NCBI RefSeq assembly: GCF_021172065.1
Contig: NZ_CP087880.1
Span: 496,001-560,000 of the forward strand
Source: Pseudocitrobacter corydidari
GTDB taxonomy: Bacteria > Pseudomonadota > Gammaproteobacteria > Enterobacterales > Enterobacteriaceae
Direction: 5' to 3'
Length of the DNA stretch: 64,000 nt
In this document: piece after piece, positions 11,967 through 64,000 of the stretch
How positions within the stretch are numbered: position 1 is the stretch's first letter
How the letters are laid out: every line of letters begins with the position of its first letter
Translations under genes and position numbers: made by a program
The notes under the pieces: generated by a model
Databases searched by the model: none
What the model was told of the DNA's origin: nothing
The model's input: only the letters and a program-made list of their open reading frames with translations

Positions 11967-12905
11967 ATGAGCAGACGCGTTGCAACAATCACACTGAATC
12001 CGGCCTACGATCTGGTTGGCTTCACGCCAGAAATTGAACGTGGCGAAGTTAACCTGGTACGCACTACCGGCCTGCACGCCGCAGGTAAAGGGATTAACGT
12101 TGCAAAAGTTCTGAAGGACCTGGGCATTGATGTCACCGTCGGCGGTTTCCTCGGCAAAGACAATCAGGACGGTTTTCAGCAACTGTTCAGCGAACTCGGT
12201 ATTGCCAACCGCTTTCAGGTGGTGCAGGGCCGTACCCGCATTAACGTTAAGCTGACGGAAAAAGATGGCGAAGTCACCGACTTCAACTTCTCCGGTTTCG
12301 ACGTGACCGCCGCAGACTGGGAACGTTTTGTTAACGACTCCCTGAGCTGGCTGGGCCAGTTCGACATGGTTTGCGTAAGCGGCAGCCTGCCCGCGGGCGT
12401 CAGCCCGGAAGCCTTTACTGATTGGATGACGCGCCTGCGCAGCCAGTGCCCGTGCATTATCTTCGACAGCAGCCGTGAAGCGCTGGTAGCGGGCCTGAAA
12501 GCCGCGCCGTGGCTGGTTAAACCGAACCGTCGCGAACTGGAAATCTGGGCGGGTCGCAAGCTGCCGGAAATGAAAGACGTGATCGACGCGGCTCACGCCC
12601 TGCGTGAACAGGGTATCGCCCATGTGGTGATCTCCCTCGGCGCAGAAGGCGCGCTGTGGGTGAATGCGTCTGGTGAGTGGATCGCTAAGCCGCCGTCAGT
12701 GGAAGTGGTCAGTACCGTTGGTGCAGGCGATTCCATGGTCGGTGGCCTGATTTACGGCCTGCTGATGCGTGAATCCAGCGAGCACACACTGCGTCTGGCG
12801 ACGGCGGTGGCGGCACTGGCAGTCAGCCAGAGCAACGTCGGCATTACCGACCGTACCCAACTGGCGGCCATGATGGCGCGCGTTGACTTACAACCGTTTA
12901 ATTAA
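11967..12905 (+). CDS. fruK: FruK, 1-phosphofructokinase
   Basis: 312 aa PfkB-family sugar kinase. It phosphorylates fructose-1-phosphate to fructose-1,6-bisphosphate with ATP. Visible features are the N-terminal substrate motif TLNPAYD, the glycine pair HAAGKGINVAKVL (about 38-50) and the PfkB signature VGAGDSMVGG with catalytic D255. The start abuts the fruB stop with no gap, typical of translational coupling. The gene lies 16 bases before fruA in the same operon. Confidence 0.97.
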   Translation: MSRRVATITLNPAYDLVGFTPEIERGEVNLVRTTGLHAAGKGINVAKVLKDLGIDVTVGGFLGKDNQDGFQQLFSELGIANRFQVVQGRTRINVKLTEKDGEVTDFNFSGFDVTAADWERFVNDSLSWLGQFDMVCVSGSLPAGVSPEAFTDWMTRLRSQCPCIIFDSSREALVAGLKAAPWLVKPNRRELEIWAGRKLPEMKDVIDAAHALREQGIAHVVISLGAEGALWVNASGEWIAKPPSVEVVSTVGAGDSMVGGLIYGLLMRESSEHTLRLATAVAALAVSQSNVGITDRTQLAAMMARVDLQPFN

Positions 12906-54579: not shown

Positions 54580-54602
54580 CCCCTCACCCTAACCCTCTCC
54601 CC
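54580..54602. repeat. Left arm of the intergenic palindrome split by the IS
   Basis: CCCCTCACCC, TA, ACCCTCTCCCC. It pairs with the arm at 55889-55911 (21 of 23 positions in the sense of an inverted repeat). Together they would form a long hairpin after bglX, with the insertion in its loop. Confidence 0.8.
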
Positions 54603-55887
54603 TGTACAGTCCGGGGACATGGTAGACAGGTGTTCGGGGACATGGTGAACACTTTTTAACATCCTTTACCCATGGAGATCGACCTTTTCTTCAGGTCGAT
54701 CACCCCCACTTTCGTACTGTACCACCACACTTCATAGCAGCCATCCTCCTGCGTCTCCTTCAGCCCGACCCGCTCTCCCCTGAACGCATTGCCTGCCTTC
54801 AGACTGATACCTTTTATGCTCAGCTTCCCGCTGATATCGACCTTCCTCACCATCACCCCTTCATCATATTCCGGTGGCGTAATGCTGTCGCTGTACTGCC
54901 TTGCAGACGGCTGATACCGCGAGGCCGGAACGGCCATACCCAGGGCTTCATGGGGCCGTTCAAGGTTATACACCGTACGCCAGTGGTCGAAAGCACGCTG
55001 CAGCTCTCCGCTGTCTGTGAACCACTTACCCTGCAGTACTTCCGCCTTCAGGCTGCGGTGAAAACGTTCCAGCTTGCCCTGTGTCTGCGGATGATATGGC
55101 CGGGAATGCCCCACCCGGATACCCTGGCGCATCAGCCACAACTCAAGTGCCGTCCAGGTGCCGGTGGTGTCGCCCCACGGTGAGCCGTTGTCCATCGTCA
55201 TCCGGTCTGGCAGCCCGTAGCGTTCAAACACGCTGACCAGCTGCTGCTGCACGGTCTCACGGCGTTCATCGGTGCAGGGTGCCAGACACAGGGAGAAACG
55301 AGAGTGGTCGTCCAGCAGGGTGAGCGGATGGCAGCGGCCCCCACCGAAGGGGAAGTGGCCCTTAAAATCCATCTGCCAGAGTCGGTTCGGCGCGTCATGT
55401 TCGAAGCGCCCTGTGGCCGGAATGCCCGGAGCCGTGCCCGGTAGCAGACCATGACGGGCCATCAGGTTATGGACGGTGCTGAAGGCGGGCATACGGTGTC
55501 CCTGGTCTTCGAGCCAGCGCTTTATCTTGCGGGCACCCCAGCGCTCATGACGGGCATGGGCGATGCGCAGCAGGTCAGTGATATCATCCGGAGAACGGTT
55601 GGGAGAGTGATGAGGTACGCGGGGACGGTCCAGAAGACCGGATGCGCCTTCCTCAGCCCAGCGACGAAGCCACTTGTAACCGGTGGCGGGAGAAATGCCG
55701 TAGTGACGGCAGAGGGAACGGATGTTCGCCCCGTCTTGTGAGGCGAACAGAACAAACTCGGAACGTAATGACATGGTATCTCTCGCATCCTAGGGCATAA
55801 GCGACTCCATAAACGGATTCTTATGCCTTAGTTGTAAGTGTCTACCATGTCCCCGAACAAGTGTTAACTATGTCCCCGGACCGTACA
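54603..55887 (-). mobile_element. IS481-family insertion sequence
   Basis: About 1285 bases with one transposase gene. The ends are inverted repeats: TGTACAGTCCGGGGACATGG from the left and TGTACGGTCCGGGGACATAG from the right. Each end holds a second copy of the motif (TTCGGGGACATGGT) 20 to 30 bases further in. Because TGTACA is its own complement, it could be the element tip or a target duplication; if the tip is GTCCGGGG, the duplication would be GTACA. Confidence 0.85.
54656..55774 (-). CDS. IS481-family transposase
   Basis: 372 aa. N-terminal helix-turn-helix (about 14-40: GANIRSLCRHYGISPATGYK), a second HTH region with RWGARKIKRWLE, and the rve/DDE integrase core with D136 (WQMDFKG), D195 (MTMDNGSPW) and E236 (GKLERFHR). 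All three catalytic residues and the frame are intact, so the element may still move. The C-terminal tail beyond 300 carries the IS481-type SH3-like segment. It occupies most of the element and reads toward bglX. Confidence 0.93.
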   Translation of the reverse strand: MSLRSEFVLFASQDGANIRSLCRHYGISPATGYKWLRRWAEEGASGLLDRPRVPHHSPNRSPDDITDLLRIAHARHERWGARKIKRWLEDQGHRMPAFSTVHNLMARHGLLPGTAPGIPATGRFEHDAPNRLWQMDFKGHFPFGGGRCHPLTLLDDHSRFSLCLAPCTDERRETVQQQLVSVFERYGLPDRMTMDNGSPWGDTTGTWTALELWLMRQGIRVGHSRPYHPQTQGKLERFHRSLKAEVLQGKWFTDSGELQRAFDHWRTVYNLERPHEALGMAVPASRYQPSARQYSDSITPPEYDEGVMVRKVDISGKLSIKGISLKAGNAFRGERVGLKETQEDGCYEVWWYSTKVGVIDLKKRSISMGKGC

Positions 55888-55888
55888 T

Positions 55889-55911
55889 GGGGAGAGGGCC
55901 GGGGTGAGGGG
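55889..55911. repeat. Right arm of the intergenic palindrome split by the IS
   Basis: GGGGAGAGGG, CC, GGGGTGAGGGG, complementary to 54580-54602 apart from two central positions. Confidence 0.8.
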
Positions 55912-56236
55912 GCACTCACCGCACCTACCAAAAATCAATCCCCATCCCCCATCCATTTCCCACTTCCGTGAACATCGTCACCTTCTGCAATAACATTTCG
56001 CTATCACCCCCGTTTTGCTCGCTCTTTTATTCCTCACTGCACATGAAAATGTGACCTCCAACGCATTTCTCTTTCCTCTGCGTCGTTGATTTTGTGCGCG
56101 CTATCAAAAGCTATTTCTCCCCCGTTTGGCGGACGTGATGATTTTCACTATTACGTAAAAAAGCCTGGAAACGGAGCGCGAGCAAAGGGCGAAAACTTCG
56201 TTAAATGCGGCTATCGAAAATCAAACAGGTAGCGCA
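55912..56236. other. Gene-free stretch before the GH28 gene
   Basis: 325 bases, AT-rich in its second half. It must carry the promoter of the GH28 gene. I searched for a KdgR-like palindrome (AATRAAA...TTTYATT) and found no convincing one. A TGTGACCTCC near 56051 resembles half of a CRP site only. Confidence 0.5.
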
Positions 56237-57574
56237 ATGAAACTCTCCCTCGAACAGGCCGGGCTCGATAACACCGGCACGCGTCCGGTTACGGCACAGT
56301 TGCAGCAGATGATTGATACCATTGCTGCGGCAGGCGGCGGTACGTTAACTATCTCACCTGGTGTCTGGCTGACCGGCACGCTGGTGCTACCTTCCCATTT
56401 CACGTTGCACCTGGAAGCCGGGGCCTGCCTGCGCGCCAGCCCCAACGTGGCGGATTACCCGAAAGACCTGACGCAGTCCATGGCTGAGTTGTCGCATATG
56501 GCGCTGCTGTACGCGCGTAATCAGCGCCAGGTAACCCTTAGCGGGGAAGGGCGCGTGGAAGGCAATGCGGCGGCCTGGTTCGCGCCGCAGGCAGATGCGC
56601 AGGGCTATCGTCAGCCTGCCGTGCAGCGCCCACGTCTGCTGGTGCTGGAAGGGTGTGAGCAGGTGCGCCTGTGCGATATCACCCTGGCGGATTCACCGAT
56701 GTGGACCGCGCATCTGGTGAGCTGCAAACATATTTTCATTCATCGCTTAACCATCGACAACGATCTGGCGCTCTCCAATACCGACGCGCTGGATCTCGAT
56801 AGCTGCCAGTTTGTGCACATCAGCGACAGCTACTTCAGCGCCGCCGATGACGGCATTTGCCTGAAAACCACCCGTAAAGCGCCTGCGCTGCAACAGCCTA
56901 CCTGCCATGTGGTGGTGAACAACTGCATCATTCGTTCGAAAAGCTGCGCCATTAAAGTGGGCACTGAAACGGCGGCGGATATCAGCCACATCATCGTCAG
57001 CAACTGCACCATTTTTGAGTCTAATCGCGGCATCGGTCTGGTGTCGCGCGATGGCGGCACGTTCAGCCAGATGAGCTTTAGCAACATTCTGTTTGATTGC
57101 CGTCACGGTCATCCGTGCCATTGGGGAAAAGCCGATCCGGTGTATCTCTCCGCGCGTCGTCGCGACCCGCAGGTTGCCGCCGGGCAGATTCAGCACATTA
57201 CCTTCAGCAACCTCTCCGGTATCAGCGAAGGGGCAATCAACCTGCACAGTGAAACCGCAGGCGATATTCACGACATCACTTTCAACGGCGTTCAGCTTCA
57301 GCAGGTGCAGGGCGATGCGCAGGAGCAGGGCTGCTTTGATGTTCGCCCACCGTGCAATCCGGCGAAACCGATCGGGATGGGTCTGGATAACGCCTACCTG
57401 GTGAACCCGGAAACCGGGCGCGCGTGGGGCGTCGAGCCATACCCTGGCGGGCTTCCGGCGCTGTATGCCGACGGCGTTACCGGGCTGGTGCTGCGTGAAT
57501 TCAACGCTGTGCGCCCGACGCCGTTGCCGGCGGGCTGGCATTCGCAGGACGTGGTGATAGTGAACGGGAAATAA
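56237..57574 (+). CDS. Glycoside hydrolase family 28 (polygalacturonase-like), no signal peptide
   Basis: 445 aa right-handed beta-helix. GH28 landmarks: NTD (181-183), DD (204-205) in SAADDGICLK, SKSCAIKVGTE (234-244) in place of the usual GHG motif, and SNRGIGLVSRDGG (262-274) in place of RIK. The catalytic aspartates are therefore present, in a bacterial subfamily that acts on short oligogalacturonides or related pectin fragments. No signal peptide is seen, so it should act in the cytoplasm on imported material, which fits the transporter gene 66 bases downstream. AGGTAGCGCA precedes the ATG. Confidence 0.85.
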   Translation: MKLSLEQAGLDNTGTRPVTAQLQQMIDTIAAAGGGTLTISPGVWLTGTLVLPSHFTLHLEAGACLRASPNVADYPKDLTQSMAELSHMALLYARNQRQVTLSGEGRVEGNAAAWFAPQADAQGYRQPAVQRPRLLVLEGCEQVRLCDITLADSPMWTAHLVSCKHIFIHRLTIDNDLALSNTDALDLDSCQFVHISDSYFSAADDGICLKTTRKAPALQQPTCHVVVNNCIIRSKSCAIKVGTETAADISHIIVSNCTIFESNRGIGLVSRDGGTFSQMSFSNILFDCRHGHPCHWGKADPVYLSARRRDPQVAAGQIQHITFSNLSGISEGAINLHSETAGDIHDITFNGVQLQQVQGDAQEQGCFDVRPPCNPAKPIGMGLDNAYLVNPETGRAWGVEPYPGGLPALYADGVTGLVLREFNAVRPTPLPAGWHSQDVVIVNGK

Positions 57575-57640
57575 GCATTCAGAGCGGCGGCGCGGCTCTG
57601 GGGTCGCTATCGCCGGATGTCAGTTTAAGGGGATGGAAAA

Positions 57641-59200
57641 ATGATAAAAAAAGTCAGGGAGATAAAACTCCATAACTATGTCTGTTACGGCCTGGCGGAT
57701 GTGATTGGTTCAGGGGCCTTCACGCTGGTCAGCGCCTGGTTGCTGTTCTTCTTAACCACCTTCTGCGGCCTGACGCCAATTGAGGCCGGGTCGCTGTTTG
57801 CGGTCGCGCGTATTGTCGATGTGATTATGTGCCCGCTGATGGGCTACATTTCCGACAACTTCCACAAAACCTGGCTGGGCCGCCGCTTTGGTCGTCGCCG
57901 CTTCTTCCTGCTGCTCAGCATTCCGCTGGTATCGGTGTACAGCCTGCTGTGGGTGGAAGGCTTCAACTACTGGATGTATCTGCTGGTCTATATCCTGTTT
58001 GAAATTGTCTATTCGATGATTTTGATTCCGTACGACACCCTGTCGGCGGAAATGACCTCCGATTTCACCAAACGGTCGAAACTGACCAGCGCCCGTATGT
58101 ATATCGCGCAGTTTGCCGGCTTTACCGCTGCGTTTCTTCCGGGCCGCCTGATTAACTATTTTGGTTCAGATTCGGCGGATTCCTTCTTCTACGCCGGGGC
58201 GATTTTCACCGTGTCGTTCATGGTAGTGCTGTTCTTTGTCTATTTTGGCACCTGGGAACGCTCTATCGAAGAGATTGAACAGAGCGAGCGCACTATCGAA
58301 ACCGCCGAGAAACTGCCGCTTTCCACGCGGATTTTCAATATCTACTACGATTTCGTTTCCACCTTAAAAATCAAAACGTTCCGCTCTCACCTGGGCATGT
58401 ATCTGGGCGGTTCCGTGGGGCAGGATATCTTTAACTCCGTCTTCACCTACTTTGTGGTGTTTGCGCTCTCTACCTCGTCGATTGTGGCCTCTAACCTGCT
58501 GAGCGCGATTAACGGTCTGCAATTCTTCGGCGTCGGTGTCGCCACCTGGCTGACCCTGCGCTACTCGCCGTCCCGCGCATTTGCTACTCAGGCCAGCATG
58601 GCGCTGATTGCTTTTGGTTTGTTCACCTTCACCTACCTGAGCGGCTCAACCAGCATGGCGCTGCTCTATCTGGCGGCGGGAATTGCGGGTCTGGCGCGCG
58701 GCGGTATCTACTCCATTCCATGGAACAACTACACCTTCGTGGCGGATGTGGATGAAATTCTCACCTGTAACCGCCGTGAAGGGATTTTTGCGGGCTTTAT
58801 GAGCCTGCTGCGTAAAGCCTCTCAGGCGCTCTCTATCTTCCTGGTGGGCGTGGCATTGCAGATGTCCGGTTTTGTTACCGGTCAGGCGAGCCAGCCCCAG
58901 TCGGCTATCAACATGATCCTCGCCATCATGATAATCCTGCCGGTGATCCTCACCGCGTGGGGTATCTGGTCTGCCTTCCAGTTCAAAGTGAATGGTCGCA
59001 CCCATGCGATTCTTAACGATGAAGTGGCGCGCCTGAAACAGGGCGGCAGCAAAGCGACGGTCACCGCCGAAACCAAAGAGGTTATCGAATCGCTGACCGG
59101 CCTGCCTTACGAGCAGTGCTGGGGAGATAACACCGTCGGCTGTGTGAACCGCAGCCTGATGAAAGCGAAAGAAAACGCGGTGCAACTAAAGAACGCGTAA
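57641..59200 (+). CDS. GPH-family MFS sugar transporter, TogT-like
   Basis: 519 aa with 12 membrane segments, starting KLHNYVCYGLADVIGSGAFT, and with the glycoside-pentoside-hexuronide cation symporter motifs MGYISDNFHKTWLGRR and PYDTLSAEMTSDFTKRSKLT. The long C-terminal tail (about 455-519) is usual for oligogalacturonide transporter TogT-like members. With the GH28 gene before it, import of oligogalacturonides or other uronic-acid oligomers is likely, though not proven. A terminator follows, so the two genes probably form one unit. Confidence 0.82.
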   Translation: MIKKVREIKLHNYVCYGLADVIGSGAFTLVSAWLLFFLTTFCGLTPIEAGSLFAVARIVDVIMCPLMGYISDNFHKTWLGRRFGRRRFFLLLSIPLVSVYSLLWVEGFNYWMYLLVYILFEIVYSMILIPYDTLSAEMTSDFTKRSKLTSARMYIAQFAGFTAAFLPGRLINYFGSDSADSFFYAGAIFTVSFMVVLFFVYFGTWERSIEEIEQSERTIETAEKLPLSTRIFNIYYDFVSTLKIKTFRSHLGMYLGGSVGQDIFNSVFTYFVVFALSTSSIVASNLLSAINGLQFFGVGVATWLTLRYSPSRAFATQASMALIAFGLFTFTYLSGSTSMALLYLAAGIAGLARGGIYSIPWNNYTFVADVDEILTCNRREGIFAGFMSLLRKASQALSIFLVGVALQMSGFVTGQASQPQSAINMILAIMIILPVILTAWGIWSAFQFKVNGRTHAILNDEVARLKQGGSKATVTAETKEVIESLTGLPYEQCWGDNTVGCVNRSLMKAKENAVQLKNA

Positions 59201-59210
59201 TCATTGACCC

Positions 59211-59243
59211 GCCCGGTGCACTCTACGCCGGGCTTACTTTTTT
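59211..59243 (+). terminator. Terminator after the GPH transporter gene
   Basis: GCCCGG (59211-59216), 11-base loop, CCGGGC (59228-59233), followed by TTACTTTTTT. It separates the GH28/GPH pair from the next MFS gene, whose ATG is at 59255. Confidence 0.8.
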
Positions 59244-59254
59244 GACTGGCATTT

Positions 59255-60490
59255 ATGACTGAACATAGCGTGTACATTCAACAAGGCATCTGGGCGCGAA
59301 TTGGCCTTCCTCGCCAGCTGCTGTGGGGCTTTATTGGCGTCTTTCTGTTTATTACCGGCGCGACTATCGAGCAGAGCTGGCTGGCGTCGCTGCTGCAACA
59401 GCGCGGCTTTGACGCGCGCGATATCAGCATGATGTCGTCGGTCTTCGGCCTTTGCGTGGCGCTGGTCTCCTGGTTCTCCGGGATTGGCGCAGGCGTGCTG
59501 GGCATTCGTCGCCTGATGTGGGCGGCGACGCTGGTCTATTTTATCGGCTCGGTGCCGTTTATCTTCTGGGCGCTGCCGCACGGAAACTATCCGTTGATGG
59601 TCGCCAGCTATGCCCTGCGCGGGGTGGCCTATCCGCTTTTTGCCTACTCATTTCTGGTGTGGATTAACCAGTGCTGTGAAACGCGCATTCTGGGGCGGGC
59701 GGTGTCCTGGTTCTGGATTGCCTTTGGCGTCGGCATGACCATCGTCGCGCCGTGGTTTTCGGGCTTTATGATCCCGCGTAGCGGGGAAACCACCACTTTG
59801 CTGATTGGCTTTGTTTTTGTGCTGGCGGGCAGCGGCTGCGCGCTGGTGCTTAACCGGGCGCAGCCCGAGCGTGAGTCAGATAGCAAAATCTTACCGGCGC
59901 TGGGCGAAGGGCTGATGGTGCTGGCGCGCGAGCCGAAAATGCGCCTGGCGGTGCTGGTAAAAACCATCAACGATATCGGCAAATTCTCGTTGGTAATTTT
60001 GATGCCGGTTTACCTGCCGCGCTTCGGTTTCAGCATTCAGGAGTGGCTGACTATCTGGGGGCTGGTCAATGTGCTGAATATCTTTGCCGGATACTTCTTC
60101 GGTTGGCTGGGCGATACCATCGGCTGGCGTAAAACCGTGGTCTTTTTCTCCGGCACGCTGTGCGGCGCAGCGTCGCTGGCGGTGTGCTACGCCCCGGTAC
60201 TGTTCGGTAACAGTGAGGTGGCGTTGTTTGCCGCACTGGCCATTTACGCCATCGGCCTGGGCGCATTCGGCCCGCTGAGCGCGCTGATCCCCGCGCTGCT
60301 GCCGGAAAACAAAGGCGCGGCAATTTCCTGCCTTAATTTAGGATCTGGCCTAAGCAACTTTGCCGGGCCGCTGATCGTCACGCTCTGCGTCGATCCCCTT
60401 GGCGTGGAAGGTACGCTGTGGGTGATTGCGGTGCTTTATTTCGCCGCCAGCGTGCTGGCGATTCCGCTAAAGGTGCCTCAGGAAAAGTAA
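59255..60490 (+). CDS. MFS transporter, possibly polyol permease type
   Basis: 411 aa with 12 membrane segments (helix 1 from LPRQLLWGFIGVFLFITGATIE). The segment GWLGDTIGWRKTVVFFSG is MFS motif A. The overall pattern recalls the ribitol/arabinitol permease group (RbtT, DalT), but I cannot confirm the family without a search. It has no good ribosome site just before the ATG, which suggests weak translation or a different start. A terminator separates it from the GPH gene and a REP-like repeat follows. Confidence 0.72.
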   Translation: MTEHSVYIQQGIWARIGLPRQLLWGFIGVFLFITGATIEQSWLASLLQQRGFDARDISMMSSVFGLCVALVSWFSGIGAGVLGIRRLMWAATLVYFIGSVPFIFWALPHGNYPLMVASYALRGVAYPLFAYSFLVWINQCCETRILGRAVSWFWIAFGVGMTIVAPWFSGFMIPRSGETTTLLIGFVFVLAGSGCALVLNRAQPERESDSKILPALGEGLMVLAREPKMRLAVLVKTINDIGKFSLVILMPVYLPRFGFSIQEWLTIWGLVNVLNIFAGYFFGWLGDTIGWRKTVVFFSGTLCGAASLAVCYAPVLFGNSEVALFAALAIYAIGLGAFGPLSALIPALLPENKGAAISCLNLGSGLSNFAGPLIVTLCVDPLGVEGTLWVIAVLYFAASVLAIPLKVPQEK

Positions 60491-60525
60491 GGTCACTCGC
60501 CTTGCTGACACAGTGCGCTTTGCCC

Positions 60526-60606
60526 TTGCCGGATGCGGCGTAAATGTCTTATCCGGCCTACAAAATATAAATCGCGTAGGCCTGATAAGCGTAGCGCATC
60601 AGGCAA
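60526..60606. repeat. REP/BIME-type repeat pair before the DKNYY genes
   Basis: TTGCCGGATGCGGCGTAAAT followed by GTCTTATCCGGCCTAC, and CGTAGGCCTGATAAGCGTAG followed by CGCATCAGGCAA, with a 15-base spacer. Confidence 0.8.
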
Positions 60607-60722
60607 TCTTGCAGCACTTATCCGGTGCGTTTGATGAATTCCTAAAAATTCTCAGCGCGCTGGATTTTTATAAAACGTTGCGCCTATATATCCGCATCAG
60701 GAACGACAGGATAAGGGCAGCT

Positions 60723-61946
60723 ATGTTCAGACAAGGATGGTTATTCGCGGGCGTGTTCTTACTGGCAACCTCCGCCAGTGCCGCAAGCTATGAGTATCAG
60801 TTAAAGGATGGGGAAACCGTTTATCTTTATGACGGTGATGTGCTCTCTCATTTGCCCGACGTCAATTATGTTCGGCTAAGCCGTATTGCCGATTTATCCC
60901 GCCCGGAAAACAAAGCTCCTCTGGTAAAAATTAACCCGGATTACTGGTATTGCGAAGAGAGCTGCGAGCACGCGTATGTCAGCGATGGCCGCTATGTGTT
61001 GTGGGCCGGAAAGATAATCCGTAACCCGGAAAATACGCCTCGAGTGGACGCCGCTACGTTTCAGGCCTTTGGTGAGTTTGCGGCGGATAAAAAGTCGCTC
61101 TACTTTAACGGCGAGCGCACCGACAGTAATCTCGGTGATAAGCGTGTCGATATGGCGACGCTGGAGGCCACGGAGATTTACGGGCTACTGAAAGACAAAA
61201 ATAATCTCTACTTTATGGGGCGCTGGCTCGCCGACGCAACGGGGTTTGAAGTTCTGGCGTGGAGCGATGACGCCGAACAGGGTTCTCTACTGTACGATCC
61301 GGCACGGCATCGCGACGTCAACGATTCTCTTGCCCGCACGGCAACCCAGGTATTTGTTAATGGTGCCCCTATCAACACGGATGCGGATACTTTCGAGGTG
61401 GTGCGCTGGATGCCCGGTTCTTTGCTGATTTATCGCGATAAAAACGGCGAGCATGAATATACCATCGGCGATGAAGAGAAGAACTGTCGGGTATTTGATA
61501 TTCGCTCGGATAGCGTGACCTGGCTTAAACGCCCCTCAACCGTTCGTACTCGCCATGACTGCGTGGTTGAGACGCTGGAGGGTGTCGACCCGGAATATTT
61601 TTATCGGCTGACTGAGCGCGTGGGGATTTATAAAGATCGTGTCTATCTGGTGAAATTTAGTCCACTGGAACCGGATGCTGAGCTGAGCATTGTTAGCCCG
61701 AAAGAGTTTGCTGAGCTTATTGATGAGTACATATCGCCGGGTGAACGTTTGGAGCTTAATATTTTTCTGAATGCGGATGGACAGTTATTTCGGAAACCAA
61801 TCCGAACACGCTATAGATATGGAGATGATGAAGACGGCGAGAATAAGGCACCTTTGGAACAATACATTCCCGCATCAGGTCATTGGATACCGCTGCGGAA
61901 TATTACCAATGAAGAGATTGAGTTACTTATTAAAAGCTCTCATTAA
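60723..61946 (+). CDS. Exported DKNYY-type repeat protein, first of a tandem pair
   Basis: 407 aa from the ATG at 60723, which follows AAGGGCAGCT and begins a clean signal peptide ending near SASA (20). The frame from 60513 runs through the REP repeat and is rejected. Repeated segments of the DKNYY kind occur: AADKKSLYFNGERTD (120-134), LKDKNNLYFMGRW (156-168), LIYRDKNGEHEY and IYKDRVYLVKF. A pair NCRVFDI and HDCVVETLEG may form a disulfide, and another pair C77/C81 stands near the start. Function unknown. It is a paralogue of the next gene, 24 bases downstream, and both are probably periplasmic or surface-held. Confidence 0.75.
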   Translation: MFRQGWLFAGVFLLATSASAASYEYQLKDGETVYLYDGDVLSHLPDVNYVRLSRIADLSRPENKAPLVKINPDYWYCEESCEHAYVSDGRYVLWAGKIIRNPENTPRVDAATFQAFGEFAADKKSLYFNGERTDSNLGDKRVDMATLEATEIYGLLKDKNNLYFMGRWLADATGFEVLAWSDDAEQGSLLYDPARHRDVNDSLARTATQVFVNGAPINTDADTFEVVRWMPGSLLIYRDKNGEHEYTIGDEEKNCRVFDIRSDSVTWLKRPSTVRTRHDCVVETLEGVDPEYFYRLTERVGIYKDRVYLVKFSPLEPDAELSIVSPKEFAELIDEYISPGERLELNIFLNADGQLFRKPIRTRYRYGDDEDGENKAPLEQYIPASGHWIPLRNITNEEIELLIKSSH

Positions 61947-61970
61947 CACCCGTAAAATCAGGATGATGTC

Positions 61971-63380
61971 ATGTTAAGAAAGTGCCTTTACCTTACCTCA
62001 CTGATGATGCTAATTCCGGGCCTGGCGCAGGCCTGTTCCGGTGTTTCATATTCAGCTTTCCTCTATCAAAAGTCGGGTAATGGAGCGAAATATGTCGTGG
62101 GAGAAAGTCGGGATGATTACAATATTCATTTCCCGGATATCCTCTTACCGCAGGTAACATTCAGCCAGTTGCGACGGGTGCCTGATGCAATCATTCATAG
62201 ATATGATTCACCTAAAGAGATTAATCACGATTTTATTATGGCTTCGGTCTATTCAGGTGAGCTGAAGAACGGCGGTTGGCGTTTTGACTGGTTGACTGAT
62301 GGGCAGCATATTTTATGGGCGGGTAAAATTGTGCAAAACCCGCCAGGTGCGCCGAAGGTGGATGTTGCCACGTTTCGCGCCTATGGTCGTTTTGCCGCAG
62401 ACAAAGACAGCCTCTATTTTGATGGTGAGCGCACGGATGATAATCATGGCGAGAAACAGGTGGACTTTGCTTCACTTCAGTCCGTTGGCGGGATCCCTGA
62501 TGCCCAGGATGACGCCGATGTGCTGAAAGATAGTCATAATCTGTACTATCGAGGCCGCTGGATAAGCTCAGCCAAGGGCTACGTCATCCTGGGCGTAAAA
62601 AGCTGGAATCAAAACGGGCCGATACGGCCACGTACCACCTGTGATACGCGATATAACCCCGGCCCGTGGGATACGCTTTTCCGCACCCCAACGCAAGTTT
62701 TTCTTAACGGTAAAGCGCTGCCGACCGACCCTGATTCTTTCGCTATCGTGCGCTGGATGCCGGGCACGCTGCTTATTTATCGCGATAAAAACGGCACCCA
62801 CCGGTATGCCTTCGGCAAAAATTGCCTCGACACCTTTGATATCCAGAAAGATAAAGTGACCTGGATAACGCGCGACGCGTCAACCAGCGGCGATGACTGC
62901 CGTATTGAAACGTTAGAGGGAGTGGATCCTGAACATTTTACACGTCTGAACGGTAACTCGGCGCAATACAAGGATTCACTCTATCAATTTAAGTATCGCT
63001 CTCCGCTGGATAAAACCCTGGTTGTGACAAAAATTATCGACCCCGAGCTGCAGCTGGAGAGGGGGTTAAATCAATATGGCCGACGTGTCTATTTCGTCGG
63101 ACTCGATGAAGTGCAGACTTTTGATACCGTGGGCGCACTGGTTTGGCTTAAAAACCCCGATGGAACACCTTCCGATACTTTCGCCCGTGATGAGCGCTAT
63201 CTCTATTTTATCTCCGATTCTATGGGGAGGATGGCGCGTATGGAAACGCGTGACCTGGATGCGGCCTACCTCAGTAAAGGTAATCATGATTTAGTCACCG
63301 TCGAAGGTAATTATGATTGGCTGAATAATCACTTTACGCCGGTCAGTGAGCTTGACGGGGAAGACTCGAGCAGTGAGTAG
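61971..63380 (+). CDS. Exported DKNYY-type repeat protein, second of a tandem pair
   Basis: 469 aa. Signal peptide ending near LAQA (21), with cysteine at 22 that makes a lipoprotein form conceivable although LAQAC is a poor lipobox. It shares whole blocks with the previous product: ILWAGKI, DVATF, AADKDSLYFDGERTD (142-156), VRWMPGTLLIYRDKNG and ETLEGVDPE. About 60 extra residues at the end hold two more repeat-like segments (RVYFVGLDEVQTFD and RYLYFISDS). No enzymatic motif is seen. Base use is more AT-rich at both ends than in neighbouring backbone genes. Function unknown. Confidence 0.75.
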   Translation: MLRKCLYLTSLMMLIPGLAQACSGVSYSAFLYQKSGNGAKYVVGESRDDYNIHFPDILLPQVTFSQLRRVPDAIIHRYDSPKEINHDFIMASVYSGELKNGGWRFDWLTDGQHILWAGKIVQNPPGAPKVDVATFRAYGRFAADKDSLYFDGERTDDNHGEKQVDFASLQSVGGIPDAQDDADVLKDSHNLYYRGRWISSAKGYVILGVKSWNQNGPIRPRTTCDTRYNPGPWDTLFRTPTQVFLNGKALPTDPDSFAIVRWMPGTLLIYRDKNGTHRYAFGKNCLDTFDIQKDKVTWITRDASTSGDDCRIETLEGVDPEHFTRLNGNSAQYKDSLYQFKYRSPLDKTLVVTKIIDPELQLERGLNQYGRRVYFVGLDEVQTFDTVGALVWLKNPDGTPSDTFARDERYLYFISDSMGRMARMETRDLDAAYLSKGNHDLVTVEGNYDWLNNHFTPVSELDGEDSSSE

Positions 63381-63418
63381 CCGTTTCTGAATCTTTCGGT
63401 AAAGATGATTTTTATCAA

Positions 63419-63426
63419 CTATGCTT
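63419..63426 (+). promoter_or_regulatory. Sigma-S-like -10 element of osmF
   Basis: CTATGCTT fits the CTAYRCTT pattern of RpoS-dependent promoters. It lies about 48 bases before the osmF ATG. The E. coli osmF operon is RpoS-dependent and osmotically induced. Confidence 0.6.
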
Positions 63427-63473
63427 TTTCCTTAATTCTCTGAAAACAACAGTAAAAGAATGAGGAAAGTATC

Positions 63474-64000
63474 ATGTCTCACGTCAAGCTCTGGGCAGGT
63501 TCACTGGCATTTCTGGCAGCCGTGAGCCTGCCGCTTCAGGCGGCGTCTCCGGTAAAAGTCGGCTCGAAAATTGATACCGAAGGGGCGCTGCTCGGAAATA
63601 TCATTTTGCAGGTGCTGGAAAGCCACGACGTTAAAACGGTGAACAAAGTGCAGCTTGGCACCACGCCGGTTGTGCGCGGCGCGATCACCTCCGGCGAGCT
63701 GGATATCTACCCGGAATATACCGGCAATGGCGCATTTTTCTTTAAAGATGAAAACGATGCGGCATGGAAAAACGCCAGGCAGGGCTATGAGAAAGTCAAA
63801 AAGCTCGATGGTGAGAAAAACCATCTTATCTGGCTGACGCCTGCGCCCGCCAACAATACCTGGACCATTGCCGTGCGTCAGGATCTCGCAGATAAAAACA
63901 AGCTCACCTCACTGGATGACCTCAGCCGCTATCTGAAAACGGGCGGAAGCTTTAAGCTTGCGGCGTCCGCTGAGTTTATCGAACGCCCGGATGCGCTTCC
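63474..64000 (+). CDS. osmF: OsmF (YehZ), glycine-betaine ABC transporter binding protein (5' part)
   Basis: 175 codons are inside the window; the gene of about 305 codons continues past the right edge. Signal peptide ends at LQAA (about 22). The mature part VKVGSKIDTEGALLGNIILQ followed by VLESH, then the region TTPVVRGAITSGELDIYPEYTGNG, which forms the ligand pocket of ProX/OpuAC-like proteins, matches E. coli OsmF. It belongs to the osmF-yehYXW low-affinity betaine importer. The start with GAGGAAAGTATC upstream is well supported, and an RpoS-like promoter precedes it. Confidence 0.93.
   Translation, partial: MSHVKLWAGSLAFLAAVSLPLQAASPVKVGSKIDTEGALLGNIILQVLESHDVKTVNKVQLGTTPVVRGAITSGELDIYPEYTGNGAFFFKDENDAAWKNARQGYEKVKKLDGEKNHLIWLTPAPANNTWTIAVRQDLADKNKLTSLDDLSRYLKTGGSFKLAASAEFIERPDAL

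Follow-up and report, generated by a model that had tools for sequence, protein, structure and literature searches.

A mobile pair of DKNYY-family genes in Pseudocitrobacter corydidari and its possible role in envelope defence

The DNA analysed here, henceforth the window, is a stretch of 64,000 nucleotides from Pseudocitrobacter corydidari (contig NZ_CP087880.1, positions 496,001 to 560,000), and towards its right end it carries two consecutive genes of the DKNYY family (Table 1). A sequence-only reading of the region had described them as adjacent tandem paralogues, and this is borne out: both open reading frames lie at the positions proposed, on one strand and 24 bp apart, and they probably share one transcript, judging from their sequence. 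The two products are 42% identical over 333 amino acids (BLASTP, E 5e-75), a likeness that far exceeds chance. The common blocks singled out in that reading are all found, namely AADKKSLYFNGERTD in protein 1 with AADKDSLYFDGERTD in protein 2, VRWMPGSLLIYRDKNG with VRWMPGTLLIYRDKNG in the same order, and ETLEGVDPE in both, and the BLASTP alignment also agrees that the proteins are unlike at both ends.

Table 1. Coordinates of the DKNYY gene pair and associated features in the window
Feature	Position	Strand	Remarks
Segment absent from congener G158, holding the pair	60485..63447		BLASTN of the window against L093
Putative REP-like element, upstream of the pair	60528..60610		Core match at 60528; ends set by eye
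Gene for DKNYY protein 1 (type 1)	60723-61946	+	407 aa; probable signal peptide, residues 1-20
Spacer between the two DKNYY genes (24 bp)	61947..61970	+	AGGA-like ribosome site by eye
Gene for DKNYY protein 2 (type 2)	61971-63380	+	469 aa; probable signal peptide, residues 1-21

Membership of the DKNYY family (PF13644) is secure for both proteins, which score 44.9 and 26.9 bits, respectively, against a cut-off of 25 bits (the gathering threshold, applied to the whole-protein score); it is the function of the pair that we infer in what follows. Pfam delimits three DKNYY stretches in protein 1 and one in protein 2, and a DKNYY match with E up to 1 is obtained for 25 of the 28 aligned homologues. 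DKNYY was the sole significant family in the Pfam search of these proteins, the window proteins had no usable match in NCBIfam, PADLOC or PHROGs, and a sequence search of solved structures returned nothing below E 0.06. The earlier view of proteins of unknown function and devoid of enzyme motifs is hence upheld, since no enzyme family appeared in any of these searches, nor did the profile libraries and solved-structure sequences yield a match to a characterised family. The aromatic-acidic repeat units also proposed there hold only loosely, as their motif count exceeds that of shuffled sequences weakly in protein 1 (P 0.035) and fails to do so in protein 2 (P 0.285).

Both proteins are probably exported to the envelope. 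Their N-termini resemble Sec signal peptides by eye, with the putative, AxA-like cleavage sites ATSASA|A in protein 1 and GLAQA|C in protein 2, and the computed hydropathy peaks there at about 1.8, as compared with at most 1.14 elsewhere in either protein; the hydrophobic N-termini and plausible signal peptidase sites thus make the export first suggested from the sequence probable. A pair of cysteines (255/280 in protein 1 and 285/310 in protein 2) is conserved in 22 of 28 homologues. Structure prediction followed by a structure search, the check advised at the outset, gave a mixed answer. The models show an all-beta core at low confidence (mean pLDDT 55 and 56, from 6 sequences), and their Foldseek matches in the PDB are mostly beta-propellers, but these are weak (best E 2.8e-4; Z 6.2 over 72 residues) and span one or two blades only; no immunity protein appeared among the matches listed in the fold searches. 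A beta-propeller fold may accordingly be taken as a lead, and so weak a propeller signal would be compatible with the binding of a ligand or partner.

Together, the two genes form an accessory cassette that is mobile horizontally. They had been placed between bglX and osmF, which are neighbours in K-12, but bglX is not adjacent to the pair: four ORFs intervene, one transposase-like, one GH28-like and two that look like genes for MFS-type transporters. In a congener (G158), bglX, the GH28-like gene and the transporter genes run directly into osmF without the pair. Window positions 55890-60484 and 63448-64000 nearly abut in the corresponding BLASTN alignment (at 12689 and 12718 of L093), and the last MFS gene is separated from osmF by 48 bp, whereas the window has around 3 kb at this point, holding the pair and an element that we presume to be REP-like from its consensus. 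The core of this element, at 60528, is the sole match in the window when up to two mismatches are allowed. The pair occupies this position in P. vendiensis as well, in copies 91.5 and 94.5% identical to the window genes. Third-position GC content is 52% in both DKNYY genes, against 63-74% in four neighbours. No mobility gene was seen inside the segment, a scan of 60485-60725 reported no inverted repeats, an Rfam search gave no match, and promoter- and terminator-like sites stay within about one standard deviation of shuffled sequences. Farther upstream, between bglX and the GH28-like gene, window positions 54602-55889 are likewise without match in the congener and carry a transposase-like ORF on the minus strand (54656-55774).

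Beyond the window, the DKNYY genes of the Enterobacteriaceae occupy a small set of fixed intergenic sites, as pairs of types 1 and 2 or of types 3 and 4, as arrays and as fusions; many gene names at unannotated loci were read by eye. P. corydidari itself has five further DKNYY genes (array genes a, b, c and d among them) between lptM-dapF and cyaY, near 3.66 Mb (L030, 7141-14933), the last of which is a natural fusion of two types. Copies or remnants are found at lptM-cyaY in E. coli, Salmonella Infantis and further enteric genera, at cycA-ytfE in E. coli, E. albertii and genome G1359, and at hda-arsC in two genomes (G238 and G143), with single copies at other places in G180 and in genus g4. 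The distribution is patchy, given that window protein 2 is matched in 10 of 246 genomes of an Enterobacteriaceae sample and an array protein, remnants counted, in 16 of 392. A profile search at the level of the order picks out 8 of 394 genomes, with weak matches (E 4e-5 to 7e-4) in six, and the family is found in 4 of 369 genomes of the class and 5 of 398 of the phylum, counts that each include P. corydidari. Seven other proteobacterial genomes have distant DKNYY genes that are single, some of them without a signal peptide by eye, and no toxin neighbours at these loci. Plasmid matches amount to three records, each of at least 1 Mb. One IMG/VR contig (L064, 4293-6626) terminates with an intact DKNYY gene of the E. 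coli type, next to phage-like genes; we take it for the host flank of a prophage, presumably Mu-like. In G243 (L090, L091), a DKNYY gene lies at the edge of a T6SS cluster with Rhs genes beside yrdA. This T6SS link, in genus g4, is weakened by a sister species (G155) with Rhs genes beside yrdA and no DKNYY gene.

Evidence that the two members belong together comes from their phylogeny, built on 32 rows for which fused proteins had been trimmed to some 465-470 residues and the G1359, G1416, G1373 and G1323 copies were left out, and in which some of the relevant branches are long and were flagged by the tool. One clade joins window gene 1 to E. coli gene 1 and, deeper, to array gene a; the other joins window gene 2 to E. 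coli gene 2 and the E. albertii gene and, deeper, to array gene b, both with strong support. The order type 1-type 2 is constant at three sites (the window, cycA-ytfE and the lptM-cyaY array), and since the two clades recur in this constant order the pair can be regarded as a single unit. Another kind of pair, c-d or type 3-type 4, recurs at lptM-cyaY in P. corydidari, E. coli and G139, and several strains have genes of 670-710 codons that join a c-type protein to the C-terminal half of a d-type protein in one chain. Natural fusion and pair order together suggest that the two members act jointly.

DKNYY genes cross genera, change fast and stay under purifying selection. Array gene d and its E. 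coli copy are 98.8% identical in DNA (dS 0.021), whereas identity between these two loci is 81-88% in dapF, xerC, cyaA and uvrD, and dapF and cyaA reach dS values of 1.04 and 0.87 against a second E. coli strain. The dN/dS ratio lies between 0.15 and 0.48 in nine DKNYY comparisons, well below 1, as opposed to 0-0.048 in 14 comparisons of flanking genes.

The same dynamics can be followed within E. coli, where a sensitive BLASTN search finds some match to the window pair in 1370 of 5426 genomes, none of them on a plasmid. Among 60 rows of the lptM-cyaY query, drawn like the other E. coli sample at evenly spaced ranks and hence not at random, 12 have a DUF3304 gene together with DKNYY genes, six have DKNYY without DUF3304 and 41 show only a scar labelled DKNYY; the last is a second replicon with solely the T6SS copy of DUF3304, at a T6SS locus. 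The scar rows include an MG1655 derivative, in which the DKNYY remnant at this site is frameshifted (L068, 1863-2041); a literature search for the K-12 name yzcX returned, among the matches listed, unrelated papers only. One of the six rows without DUF3304 (H52) has a truncated DKNYY gene and then a fimbrial operon (L071, 8337-11967), so that lptM-cyaY takes other cargo too. The cycA-ytfE query is covered to at least 80% in 263 of the 5426 genomes, and in 60 spread rows the site is empty in 52, holds the pair in three and a remnant in four, and is matched on one side in one. An orphan DUF3304 gene precedes the DKNYY genes at lptM-cyaY in 12 of 18 DKNYY rows versus none of the 41 scar rows (e.g. 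L027, 10739-11293, and L070, 6554-7108); none is annotated beside the array of the Salmonella record. Over 174 amino acids, the orphan of L027 shares 67% identity with the DUF3304 protein encoded at a T6SS locus of the order VgrG-DUF4123-DUF3304-Tle1, and DUF3304 proteins neutralise Tle1 (PMC13133936).

The company of orphan DUF3304 genes and the patchy, decaying, exchanged and rapidly changing nature of the DKNYY genes point to a defence of the envelope in competition. We therefore put forward, tentatively and with a probability of about 0.4, that the DKNYY pair neutralises the toxins of rivals in the periplasm, in the manner of orphan immunity proteins. Both proteins would be exported by Sec and, once in the oxidising periplasm, would become beta-propeller-like binders that sequester rival toxins reaching the envelope, the likeliest targets being T6SS or other contact-delivered effectors that hit membrane or wall; cassettes would be kept under toxin threat and otherwise lost as scars. 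Immunity of this sort would be orphan, or non-cognate, as no T6SS was found in the P. corydidari genome, in which the two marker families searched, TssK and VipB, have no match. The envelope, toxin-immunity or competition role once guessed from sequence is in this way partly favoured, genome context speaking for competition or immunity while no copy was found beside a toxin, and the survey of neighbours proposed with it led to the same balance, revealing fixed sites and the company of orphan DUF3304 but no toxin neighbour at the loci read.

Much of this evidence could also be claimed for periplasmic protection from phage, or from lytic enzymes of host or phage origin, in which the proteins would bind a phage factor or lysozyme. 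Equal mobility, decay and fast evolution would be expected of it, and periplasmic binders would be suited to such a task. We nevertheless hold it to be unlikely: PADLOC and PHROGs are without match, tblastn of protein 1 against 50,697 phage records gave a single match, to a Salmonella draft contig, the sole IMG/VR relative sits at a contig end, next to genes that look phage-like, and appears to be host flank, and the sole known neighbour family is one of T6SS immunity. An envelope or nutrient role as an accessory niche trait, with secreted or periplasmic proteins binding a sugar, a cofactor or a surface partner, would draw on propeller-like models that may accommodate a ligand and on window neighbours (the GH28-like gene and the two transporters) that look by eye like carbohydrate-use genes. 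Yet the GH28 and transporter genes occur in the congener without the pair, other DKNYY sites are without neighbours of this kind, and rapid change and repeated decay would be less expected of a nutrient binder, so that this reading, too, appears doubtful. The tandem arrangement, mobility and unassigned function might finally evoke a toxin with its own antidote; the two genes are, however, homologous to each other, the c-d pair is fused in one chain, which fits poorly with one member poisoning its own cell, and no toxin family was matched in Pfam, NCBIfam, PADLOC or PHROGs, all of which render this very improbable.

Within the preferred reading of orphan-like immunity, a more specific and by itself rather unlikely proposition is that of an obligate two-protein periplasmic trap, in which two differing beta-propeller paralogues would jointly bind one toxin and be transferable, as a cassette, between fixed intergenic docks of enteric bacteria. 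If true, this would be a defence family so far unrecognised, and even E. coli K-12 would retain its remains at lptM-cyaY. In many enteric genomes DKNYY genes bear the label hypothetical, and a full-text literature search for DKNYY returned a single paper, on Parvimonas. Should the defence be shared, part of the E. coli competition repertoire would still be unread (1370 of 5426 genomes match), and the K-12 scar at lptM-cyaY would explain why laboratory work missed these genes. Pairing and natural fusion allow a direct structural and genetic test.

None of the libraries searched assigns a function to the DKNYY family, and its distant members are single genes, in contrast to the exported-looking, paired and mobile members of the window. 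In T6SS and CDI effector-immunity bicistrons the effector is adjacent, an arrangement not seen for DKNYY genes, no effector gene having been recognised beside any copy at the loci read. Tsi1, the immunity protein to the T6SS amidase Tse1, is periplasmic and all-beta with a partial beta-propeller shape (PMC3391265), features that the DKNYY proteins may share, the DKNYY fold being a low-confidence model; it did not emerge from the solved-structure sequence search, and the DKNYY proteins are larger and paired. Tli1, a DUF3304 protein that confers immunity to Tle1, has orphan relatives of its type ahead of many DKNYY arrays in E. coli, but is a separate family with no likeness to DKNYY. Closer parallels are SAIDI-1, an orphan immunity islet of S. 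Typhi (PMC7400221), and the rAID of Bacteroidales (PMC12247911), which are likewise accessory arrays at fixed chromosomal spots, in hosts where no cognate system was found; empty sites and the absence of T6SS marker matches align the DKNYY genes with such islets. The main evidence for SAIDI-1 is that homologues lie beside effectors, which was not found for DKNYY and is seen only for the accompanying DUF3304. Moreover, SAIDI-1 mixes unrelated families side by side, whereas DKNYY arrays consist of one family, with DUF3304 in E. coli, set out in pairs and sometimes fused.
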